From the NCBI GenBank assembly GCA_031179215.1, contig JAPSIA010000017.1, positions 1 through 35,984 on the forward strand: a stretch of DNA of 35,984 nucleotides, in the 5' to 3' direction. The DNA comes from Agrococcus sp. (GTDB lineage: Bacteria > Actinomycetota > Actinomycetes > Actinomycetales > Microbacteriaceae). A program made the position numbers and the translations under genes. Positions 15,916-18,171 of this stretch are shown here, piece after piece; the first letter of the stretch is position 1; the number at the start of each line of letters is the position of its first letter. The notes under the pieces were generated by a model. That model did no database searches. It saw only the letters and a program-made list of their open reading frames with translations, and had not been told where the DNA came from.

Positions 15916-16809
15916 ATGCCGGAGCTGCCGGAGGTCGAGGCGCTCGCGGCCGATCTCGGCGAGCGCCTGACCGGCCGCACGATCCGCCGCGTCGATGTGA
16001 CCGAGATCGCCGCGCTCAAGACGTTCGACCCCCCGCTCGACGCGCTCCACGGCAGGACCTTCACCGGAGCGAGCCGACGCGGCAAGCACCTCGTGCTGAC
16101 CGTCGACGGCGGCCTGCACCTCGTGATCCACCTCGCCCGATCGGGCTGGATCCGATGGCGCGACGCTGCGCCGAAGCCGACGGCGGGCCGTGGCCGGGGG
16201 CCGCTCGCCGCTCGCGTCGTGCTCGAGCGGGCCGACGGCGACGAGGGGCTCGGCGGCGACGGCTTCGACGTCACCGAGCAGGCGAGCCACAAGCGGCTCG
16301 CGATCCACGTCGTCGAGCATCCCGAGCAGGTCATGTCGATCGCGACGCTCGGGCCCGAGCCGCTCGAGGCGGCGTTCACCGAGGAGCGCTTCGCCACGAT
16401 CCTCGCGCACGCCGGCCGCGCCCAAGTCAAGGGCGTCCTGCGCGACCAGCGGCGCATCGCCGGCATCGGCAACGCGTACTCCGACGAGATCCTGCACGCG
16501 GCGCGGATGTCGCCGTTCCACCCGGCGTCGATGCCGCCGGCGGACGTGCACCGGCTCTACGAGGCGCTGCGGCTCGTGCTCGGCGACGCCGTCGAGCGCG
16601 CGCGCGGCGTCAAGGCGGCCTCGCTCAAGGCCGAGAAGCGGCAGGGCATGCGCGTGCACGGCCGCAAGGGCGAGGCGTGCCCCGTGTGCGGCGACACGGT
16701 GCGGCAGGTCGTCTACGCCGACTCGACGCTCGAGTACTGCGCGACGTGCCAGACGGGCGGCAAGCCGCTCGCCGACCGCGTGCTCTCGCGGCTCGGCGTG
16801 CGGCGCTGA
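15916..16809 (+). CDS. Fpg/Nei-family DNA glycosylase / AP lyase
   Basis: 297 residues. It excises oxidised bases and cleaves at the abasic site. The N-terminus PELPEVE holds the catalytic Pro2 and Glu3, so Met1 must be removed. RRGKH (54-58) contains the conserved lysine, the H2TH region is RIAGIGNAYSDEILHAARMSP, and the zinc finger is CPVC...CATC near residues 256-279. Whether it is Fpg-like or Nei-like cannot be settled by reading. The last codons (LGVRR and stop) lie at the start of a 32-bp tandem array that repeats this stretch downstream, so the stop codon is copied three more times after the gene. Confidence 0.92.
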   Translation: MPELPEVEALAADLGERLTGRTIRRVDVTEIAALKTFDPPLDALHGRTFTGASRRGKHLVLTVDGGLHLVIHLARSGWIRWRDAAPKPTAGRGRGPLAARVVLERADGDEGLGGDGFDVTEQASHKRLAIHVVEHPEQVMSIATLGPEPLEAAFTEERFATILAHAGRAQVKGVLRDQRRIAGIGNAYSDEILHAARMSPFHPASMPPADVHRLYEALRLVLGDAVERARGVKAASLKAEKRQGMRVHGRKGEACPVCGDTVRQVVYADSTLEYCATCQTGGKPLADRVLSRLGVRR

Positions 16810-16931
16810 CCGGGTGCTCGCGGCTGGGCCTGCGGCGCTGACCGGGTGCGCTCGGCTGGGTGTGCGGCGCTGACCGCGAGCTCGCGGCTGGGCGTGCGGC
16901 GCTGACGGGTTCCTCTCGGCTGGACGCTGAC
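16799..16931 (+). repeat. 32-bp tandem array, four copies plus a fragment
   Basis: TGCGGCGCTGAC recurs at 16799, 16831, 16863 and 16895, exactly 32 bp apart. Each unit continues with a variable middle and a CGGCTGGG-type end. A partial fifth copy ends near 16931. The first copy is the end of the glycosylase coding sequence, including its TGA. The preceding 32 bp of coding sequence (16767-16798) resembles a diverged copy, so the array probably arose by duplication of the gene end. It has no unique spacers and is not CRISPR. Confidence 0.85.
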
Positions 16932-16962: not shown

Positions 16963-17244
16963 TCAGCTCGAGCGCTCGGGGATCCCGCCCGTCGCGATCG
17001 TCCACGGCTGCACCGTGACGACCTCGACGCCGGGGGCGGAGTAGTAGGGGTCGTCCTCGAGCGAGGCCTCGACGACCGACATGTCGTCGGTCGAGAACAG
17101 CAGCAGTGCGCCGGTCTGATCCTCGAAGGGACCGCCCGCGAGCAGCACGCCCTGCTCGTGCAGGGCTGCCGCGTGCTCTCGGTGCGCGGGGCGCAGCTCG
17201 AGGCGTGCCGGGTCGTCGGAGAAGGCGAGGATGACAGCGATCAT
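16963..17244 (-). CDS. YciI-family protein
   Basis: 93 residues matching the small YCII ferredoxin-like fold: MIAVILAFSDDPARLELRPA, HREHAAALHEQGVLLAGGPF, ALLLFSTDDMSVVEASLEDDPY, ending in VVTVQPWTI. The conserved His of HREHAA and the Asp of DDPY are the residues usually considered for the active site. The biochemical role of most YciI proteins is not known; a lyase or dehalogenase-like activity has been suggested for some. TAGGCT lies six bases upstream of the ATG with no Shine-Dalgarno. It converges with the glycosylase gene across the tandem array. Confidence 0.85.
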   Translation of the reverse strand: MIAVILAFSDDPARLELRPAHREHAAALHEQGVLLAGGPFEDQTGALLLFSTDDMSVVEASLEDDPYYSAPGVEVVTVQPWTIATGGIPERSS

Positions 17245-17250
17245 GCCCTC

Positions 17251-17256
17251 AGCCTA
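17251..17256 (-). promoter_or_regulatory. -10 element of the YciI gene
   Basis: TAGGCT, six bases (GAGGGC), then ATG at 17244. A clear example of the leaderless arrangement. Confidence 0.6.
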
Positions 17257-17285
17257 GGCAAGGAACCGGCCACCCCCGCCCGGCG

Positions 17286-17360
17286 CGCTGGGATGTGCGC
17301 GCGGGCGGCCGCCGAGCCCCGCATCCGGGGTCGGCCGCCGATGGCGTGCACTTCCCAGCG
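17286..17360. repeat. Palindromic element copy A (75 bp)
   Basis: Begins CGCTGGGATGTGCGCG and ends GCGTGCACTTCCCAGCG, so the ends are inverted copies with few mismatches. The inner part GGCGGCCG...CGGCCGCC extends the pairing, and the whole element can fold as one long hairpin or cruciform. A second copy lies at 17435-17508. Confidence 0.8.
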
Positions 17361-17428
17361 GCGACTCGGAACCGGGTCGCGCACCGCCGGGGCGCACACC
17401 CCAGCGGCGACCCGGAACCGGGTCGCGC
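17354..17428. repeat. 29-nt direct repeat linking the two palindromic elements
   Basis: CCCAGCGGCGAC followed by CGGAACCGGGTCGCGC is present at 17354-17382 and at 17400-17428 with one difference. Each contains its own palindrome (CGACCCGG-AA-CCGGGTCG in the second). The first copy overlaps the end of element A, so the unit may be a tail of the same repeat family. Confidence 0.7.
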
Positions 17429-17434
17429 GCGACG

Positions 17435-17508
17435 CGCTGGGATGTGCGCGTGGGCGGCCGCCGGGTCCGCATAGGCGGTCGGGTGCCGGTGGCGTGCACA
17501 TCCCAGCG
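17435..17508. repeat. Palindromic element copy B (74 bp)
   Basis: Begins CGCTGGGATGTGCGCG and ends GCGTGCACATCCCAGCG, perfectly inverted over the first 13 bases. It shares 28 of its first 29 bases with copy A; the centre is more diverged. A lone inverted 13-mer also occurs at 17394-17406. No gene lies in 17245-17595. Confidence 0.8.
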
Positions 17509-17595
17509 CGGCGCGGTCGCAGCGGCGACCGGACGACGACGGGCGGACGCGCCGCGTGGTGCGGCAGCGCATCCGCCCGTCGGGGGAACCGGGGC

Positions 17596-18171
17596 TCAGG
17601 CCGAGACGAGCTCCGCGGCGGCGGCGGCCACGAGGCCCTCGATGCTCTCGCGCAGCGCCTCGGACGAGCGCGAGACGAAGGCCGGCGCGTCGACCATGTG
17701 CATCGACTCGTCGAAGTCGGTGGGCTGGAAGGGCATGCGCACACCCTCGCCCTGGCGCGCGAGGCCGATGTAGTCGAGCACGGCGTGCAGCTGCGCGGCG
17801 GCTGCCTGGCCACCGGCCCAGCCGTAGGAGACGACGACGGCGGGCTTGCCGACCCACTCCTCCTTGAGGTAGTCGATCGCGTTCTTCAGCGCCGCGGGGT
17901 AGCCCGAGTTGTAGTCGGGCGTGACGAACACGACGCCGTCGAGCGCGGCGACCTGCTCGGCCCACGCGATCGAGTGCGGCTGCGTGCGGATACCGGAGGC
18001 GGGCGGCAGCGCCTCGTCGAGCAGCGGGAGTCGCAGCTCGGCGAGGTCGAGCATCACGGGCTCTGCGCCGGCGGCCTCGACCATGCCGACGAGCTCATCG
18101 GCGACCGAGCGGCCGACGCGAGTGGGGCGGGTGCTGCCGACGATGATGCCGACCTTGGGGCGTGCAGACAT
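17596..18171 (-). CDS. NAD(P)H-dependent FMN reductase (flavodoxin-like)
   Basis: 191 residues. The N-terminal strand and phosphate loop VGIIVGSTRPTRVGR (7-21) bind the FMN phosphate, and TPDYNSGYPAALKNAIDYL is the family motif near the isoalloxazine ring. It reduces flavins or quinones with NAD(P)H in the cytoplasm. GAGGAG six bases before the ATG at 18171 fixes the start. It is a single gene followed upstream by a 107-bp gap that contains a CGAATTCG palindrome at 18258. It may serve oxidative or electrophile stress, by analogy with relatives. Confidence 0.9.
   Translation of the reverse strand: MSARPKVGIIVGSTRPTRVGRSVADELVGMVEAAGAEPVMLDLAELRLPLLDEALPPASGIRTQPHSIAWAEQVAALDGVVFVTPDYNSGYPAALKNAIDYLKEEWVGKPAVVVSYGWAGGQAAAAQLHAVLDYIGLARQGEGVRMPFQPTDFDESMHMVDAPAFVSRSSEALRESIEGLVAAAAAELVSA

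Follow-up and report, generated by a model that had tools for sequence, protein, structure and literature searches.

The window, which is the whole 35,984-nt stretch of DNA analysed here, belongs to an Agrococcus sp. genome assembled as a 2.56-Mb draft (G000; other G numbers denote other genomes). Two palindromic elements, E1 and E2, lie in the gap between two minus-strand genes, one for an FMN reductase and one for a YCII-related protein, and the region is organised as follows.

16969–17244, minus strand: YCII-related protein gene (PF03795; coordinates as translated, without the stop codon), given as context.
17286–17360, no strand assigned: E1, a 75-bp palindrome (repeat search, folding and a covariance-model match of 76.0 bits, E 3.5e-13).
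17328–17419, no strand assigned: 46-bp tandem repeat, the right part of E1 plus spacer in duplicate, with copies 78% identical and containing a lone arm at 17394–17406.
17361–17380, no strand assigned: near-palindrome GCGACTCGGAACCGGGTCGC, copy 1 (inverted pair; copy 2 at 17407–17426).
17407–17426, no strand assigned: palindrome GCGACCCGGAACCGGGTCGC, copy 2 (inverted pair).
17435–17508, no strand assigned: E2, a 74-bp palindrome (repeat search, folding and a covariance-model match of 81.7 bits, E 1.8e-14).
17537–17582, minus strand: separate terminator-like hairpin of the GGGCGGATGCG type, 3′ of the FMN reductase gene and outside the E1/E2 family (DNA z-score −5.48).
17596–18171, minus strand: NADPH-dependent FMN reductase gene (PF03358), given as context.

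A previous interpretation made from the letters of the window (the sequence-only reading) described two 75-bp elements, each able to fold as a single hairpin. Both are real palindromes, although only E1 is 75 bp long and E2 is 74 bp; as claimed, 28 of their first 29 bases are identical, and each folds as single-stranded DNA better than all of its 200 shuffled versions (z-scores of −6.86 for E1 and −5.55 for E2). The 29-nt direct repeat with its own palindrome and the lone inverted end placed between them do correspond to repeated DNA, which is actually one 46-bp tandem repeat with units at 17328–17373 and 17374–17419. As each unit comprises the right arm of E1 and a palindrome of about 20 bp, the lone end at 17394–17406 is a duplicated right arm. 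In agreement with the statement that the stretch has no gene, gene calling places none in 17245–17595, and a search of the window against Rfam gave no match above the gathering score. Elsewhere in the window, degenerate GC-rich repeats of the gcggcgctgaccgggtgctcgcggctggg type are present at 16800–16920, downstream of a plus-strand gene.

Among the relatives of the FMN reductase, five are named: four Agrococcus proteins (75–82% identity) and one remote Bacillus protein. When 18 orthologous intergenic regions were compared by eye, the E1/E2 pair was seen only in G000, so that the base-level conservation in relatives that would have pointed to a structured RNA is absent. The GGGCGGATGCG...CGCATCCGCCC hairpin was seen by eye 3′ of the FMN reductase gene in 13 of the 18 orthologous Agrococcus regions (L064–L081), and its conserved sequence suggests that it may be another genus-wide hairpin family. 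In one of these regions (L070, from G018), an 89-bp element occupies the place that this hairpin has in other species.

E1 and E2 had been proposed to belong to a dispersed intergenic palindrome family, and this is supported by 14 copies in G000 and by relatives across the genus; as in the sequence-only reading, no name for such a family is known to us. The 13-mer of the element ends is not confined to the window, as it occurs in eight exact copies in G000, and 28 with at most one mismatch, versus two for the reversed control. A lone arm and nothing more was seen at eight of the fetched loci; seven of these are within called genes and seem to be chance matches, the exception being L020. A covariance model built from 13 copies gave 14 matches in G000, set apart from the rest by a clear drop in score (40 vs. 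27 bits). With this model, run on 60 relatives at E ≤ 0.01, matches were found in 13/24 genomes of the genus (own genome included) and in 0/36 outside it, a count that used stricter filters and in which a few single matches (L047 and L049 among them) appear to be accidental. A broader genus-wide model detected the family in 12/24 Agrococcus genomes at E < 1e-4 and in 19/24 at E ≤ 0.1, the relatives being divergent. Some of these could be named through identical intergenic sequence, judged by eye: G019 is A. baldri, G007 A. terreus, G013 A. sediminis and G020 Agrococcus sp. HG114.

The element ends, with the consensus CGCTGGG/GAG in G000, vary between species yet remain paired, and the length is 66–100 bp in the named element sets. 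At least three palindrome subtypes were found in G021 as well as in G008; subtype gamma, which occurs in other genomes than G000, starts with CGTC, and the remaining subtypes are without this tag. At orthologous sites with flanks 90–94% identical, the subtype may differ (beta in L103 vs. alpha in L116; likewise L104 vs. L119), or a copy may have decayed (L099 vs. L186 and L187). In G021, G008 and G023, an element pairs with itself better than it matches other copies, which is not the case in G000 or G018. The elements are frequently in pairs or arrays; at L160 (G022), four palindromes of 68 bp follow each other head to tail at 1950–2268, with a spacing of 83–84 bp.

A search for a RAYT-type or other transposase had been advised in the sequence-only reading; the linked gene, which could not be seen from the letters of the window, encodes a Vsr-fold endonuclease. 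The gene product from G000 contig C70 matches PF18741 (MTES_1575 REase, E 2.2e-10) and PF04480 (DUF559, E 2.8e-10), which are of the Vsr-fold type, and has a weakly AbiEi-like N-terminus (PADLOC AbiEi, E 2.3e-5). The nearest solved chains, at weak sequence similarity, are 3hrl_A (E 8.4e-6) and 3r3p_A ("Mobile intron protein", E 0.0014). Homologues are present in 24/24 Agrococcus genomes, and the conserved residues E182, D208, E218, D220 and H225 are kept in 49–50 of 50 proteins. The gene is flanked by two elements in G000 (C70), G018, G019 and G008, and there is an element at its 3′ end in G004 and G021. One of the C70 elements lies 319 bp upstream and the other across the stop codon, and they have the arms in common, but not the interior. 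For remote homologues encoded on plasmids, the annotation is AbiEi family antitoxin. The search for homologues on plasmids and phages gave two and one records, respectively, all partial matches, and hence nothing that points to a plasmid or phage as the vehicle.

The association between nuclease genes and palindromes was quantified with a both-side repeat test, in which the 350 bp upstream of each gene were aligned with the 250 bp downstream in either strand, a score of at least 22 being counted as a pass. The nuclease sample (n = 49) drew on all 35 homologues above 230 bits, 13 of the 20 at about 150–178 bits and two of the rest; the L206 locus was left out owing to its short flank, and L202 and L216 (G006) duplicate each other exactly and are both outside the set of passing genes. 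A repeat on both sides was found for 28/49 Agrococcus nuclease genes versus 0/61 control genes, whose maximum score was 18, and none of the 43 controls with at least 80 bp of intergenic DNA on both sides passed. When upstream and downstream regions of different nucleases were mismatched, 19/2352 pairs passed overall and 0/78 within one genome. The passing genes are distributed over the nuclease clades as 17/34 in A, 10/13 in B and 1/2 in C. Their repeats measure 44–117 bp, with at least one copy more palindromic than shuffled sequences in 27/28 cases and both copies in 24/28. As all 28 passing genes come from the 43 that were found by protein homology alone, this result is independent of how the family was found. 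The remaining 21/49 genes fall below the threshold, including the six seed genes (14.5 for C70 and 16.0–18.5 for the other five). Nuclease genes and palindromes are associated.

Plain counting of palindromes around genes was only weakly informative, since 12/58 controls have a palindrome of at least 55 bp within 250 bp (some are extended terminators and one is the E1 of the window), and the both-side test was used in its place; the corresponding counts for the nuclease genes are 13/35 (A), 10/13 (B) and 1/2 (C). Among the 80 Microbacteriaceae genomes searched, 60 have nuclease homologues, and outside Agrococcus 6 of the best 28 loci passed the both-side test versus 0/31 controls, the others having a single palindrome. 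Other Microbacteriaceae thus repeat the Agrococcus pattern, more weakly.

The repeat type tracks the nuclease lineage and not the host genome. Across 38 gene–palindrome units, nuclease identity correlates with palindrome similarity (Mantel r 0.36, p 2e-4), a moderate correlation with exceptions, as nearest-neighbour nucleases do not always have the same palindrome; different nucleases within one genome have a median palindrome similarity of 7.5 versus a background of 7.0. In G000, all 14 elements score 14–74 against the C70 palindrome, which is their best or tied best match among the 38 units (C70's own copy included), versus 7–10 against the C100 palindrome; for E1 and E2, the scores are 27.5 and 21.5 with the C70 palindrome and 8.5 and 7.0 with that of C100. 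Similarly, 4/4 elements in G004 match the palindrome of their own nuclease. However, a better match to the nuclease of another genome than to any own one compared was obtained for 6/16 elements in G021, 5/20 in G008 and 4/4 in G017, which we read as cognates that are lost, unsampled or wrong. The clade-B palindrome is itself dispersed, a 12-mer from it having 127 matches (50 in G021, 31 in G008 and 46 in G023) versus 0 in G000 and 0 for the reversed control. Its motif also forms arrays with a period of about 91 bp at G023:C1:2136030-2136405 and 253610-253987.

The nuclease genes occupy eight syntenic groups, one of which is formed by the genes of C70, G018 and G019, those of G004, G021, G008 and G023 being elsewhere. 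Most groups diverge faster than their neighbours while keeping the conserved acidic residues: nuclease identity is below that of the neighbours in 128/131 non-duplicate pairs (mean 0.64 vs. 0.84), which are not independent of each other. The C70 group is an exception, as its nuclease does not diverge faster (0.71 vs. 0.71, and lower in 1/3 pairs). At one site common to G008 and G021, the nucleases are 67% identical between neighbours that are 91–97% identical, and one genome has an alpha palindrome and the other a beta palindrome. At the corresponding site in G023, a nuclease fragment adjoins an element.

E1 and E2 are non-coding copies of a dispersed palindromic element, which probably forms a REP/RAYT-like pair with a nuclease that is unrelated to RAYTs. 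We call the pair REP/RAYT-like, and not a member of that class, because architecture, co-diversification and fast evolution match but the RAYT domain is absent. Against this reading stand the low both-side scores of C70 and the other seed genes, the 21/49 genes below the threshold, the equal divergence in the C70 group and the elements that match the nuclease of another genome better, and neither a precise empty site nor a duplicated target was detected. The spread of the palindromes would be caused by the nuclease, which is predicted to bind and cut them. The protein, with its winged-helix-like N-terminus and PD-(D/E)XK-type C-terminus, would recognise its own palindrome, probably as a dimer, either on a symmetric site or on an extruded or single-stranded hairpin. 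A cut or nick, made there or at another locus, might then lead to the copying of palindromes to new positions, or to the exchange of one subtype for another, in the course of repair or replication. In such a system, as has been suggested for REPs and RAYTs, what spreads would be the non-autonomous palindromes, with the gene staying in place as their helper. A more tentative proposal, to which we give slightly less than an even chance, is that of a selfish system in Actinobacteria in which a chromosomal, winged-helix-headed endonuclease of Vsr/EDxHD fold recognises a long palindrome of its own and drives the spread, replacement and homogenisation of palindromes of this type through the genome. 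No paper linking such nucleases with palindromic repeats was found in the open-access literature on DUF559, MTES_1575, AbiEi and Agrococcus.

The palindromes could instead be operators, bound by the winged-helix part of the protein for the control of its own gene, with the dispersed copies as a regulon or decoys and not mobile DNA. This would fit the AbiEi-like N-terminus (PADLOC AbiEi, E 2.3e-5) and the repeats both upstream and downstream of the nuclease gene, but a near-perfect hairpin of 60–100 bp is long for an operator, copies follow stop codons in G021, G008 and G023, and copies are clustered in arrays and undergo subtype swaps at a site, and we consider it unlikely.

It is also improbable that the elements are RNA hairpins at gene 3′ ends, acting as terminators or mRNA stabilisers and made uniform in each genome, with an incidental link to the nuclease. 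Their positions argue for this in some genomes: in G021, G008 and G023, 26/41 elements lie at most 15 nt from a stop codon versus 3.5 expected, divergent intergenic regions contain one element versus 16.8 expected, and in G017, G007 and G004 together 4/8 elements are near a stop codon versus 0.98 expected. However, near-stop elements are as rare as chance predicts in G000 (1/12) and in G018 and G019 (1/12), and some elements adjoin a separate terminator-like hairpin. A wobble bias is absent, with 68 G–T versus 67 A–C mismatches in 47 tandem elements, counted on the strand that is transcribed; with no preference for G–U, nothing here speaks for selection at the RNA level, although the positive control (27 terminator-like hairpins, 11 vs. 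9 mismatches) is too small for this to be decisive. Such a role would leave the cognate repeats around nuclease genes unexplained.

The sequence-only reading had also mentioned MITE-like elements, which would be derived from a classical transposon with a transposase that escaped detection. Terminal inverted repeats are indeed present, and the dispersal and the decayed copies (L186 and L187) would be in keeping with it. However, the 89 elements examined (93 model matches minus four judged to be chance, three of them inside genes and one partial at a locus end) show no excess of target-site duplications over shuffled sequences. Moreover, in six genomes the exact end 12-mer, which would miss diverged ends, forms plus/minus pairs only at element length and none at insertion-sequence length (by eye), and near-perfect pairing extends through the interior of many copies. 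An origin as MITEs is thus quite improbable. That the elements are a REP/RAYT family proper, the other suggestion of the sequence-only reading, is scarcely credible and already contradicted in Agrococcus: architecture and evolution do resemble the features published in PMC2817692, but the RAYT domain Y1_Tnp (PF01797) has a match in 0/24 Agrococcus genomes and in 5/14 control genomes, the elements are longer than REPs, and the G000 consensus has no GTAG or CGTC tag.

Among known systems, ERIC and YPAL are long, near-perfect palindromes in transcribed regions. The Agrococcus elements are likewise long intergenic palindromes, but are unrelated to them in sequence. ERIC and YPAL are not known to have a linked gene, and a driver is not known for ERIC, YPAL or the CGTC-tagged REPs; the Agrococcus family comes with a candidate enzyme other than a transposase, in bacteria that are non-pathogenic and can be grown in the laboratory. 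The chain 3r3p_A, with which the nuclease has weak catalytic-domain homology (E 0.0014), is presumably I-Bth0305I, an EDxHD homing endonuclease. According to PMC3943268, I-Bth0305I binds its target, of almost 60 bp, as a dimer, which makes a nuclease dimer on a 60–75 bp palindrome plausible. Unlike such homing enzymes, the nuclease gene is free-standing, with an AbiEi-like N-terminus, at fixed syntenic chromosomal sites and with no intron or intein. The MTES_1575 domain is described in PMC3710099 as having a Vsr REase fold and as one domain of giant HEPN/helicase proteins, whereas in Agrococcus the same Pfam domain occurs beside palindromes, in a small protein that combines a wHTH-like part with the REase.

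The CGTC-tagged REPs, dispersed palindromes without a known RAYT, are described without a dedicated enzyme (PMC3733652); one Agrococcus subtype (gamma) starts with CGTC like these, but the others are untagged. For RAYTs and REPs, the gene architecture, co-diversification and fast gene evolution have been reported (PMC2817692). REPtrons and REPINs (PMC2817692, PMC3733652) share with the Agrococcus system the dispersed intergenic palindromes in clusters and arrays, and the fast-evolving gene flanked by cognate palindromes whose type tracks the gene lineage. Flanking of this kind occurs here with another enzyme, in 28/49 cases, and not for the six seed genes including C70. The Agrococcus enzyme is a Vsr-fold nuclease of PD-(D/E)XK type and not a Y1 HUH transposase, and its palindromes are 66–100 bp long and present in tens of copies, in contrast to hundreds of copies for REPs, whose unit length is given as 20–40 bp in PMC3733652.

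If the proposed selfish system is real, evolution would have arrived at a counterpart of REP/RAYT with a non-homologous enzyme, and many proteins now labelled DUF559 or "AbiEi family antitoxin", a large uncharacterised nuclease-like group, would have a function. The many natural gene–palindrome pairs can be exchanged in comparisons of binding and cutting. The freshest-looking units are at L226 and L227 (G015), where two nuclease genes have near-identical repeats of 73–103 bp on each side.
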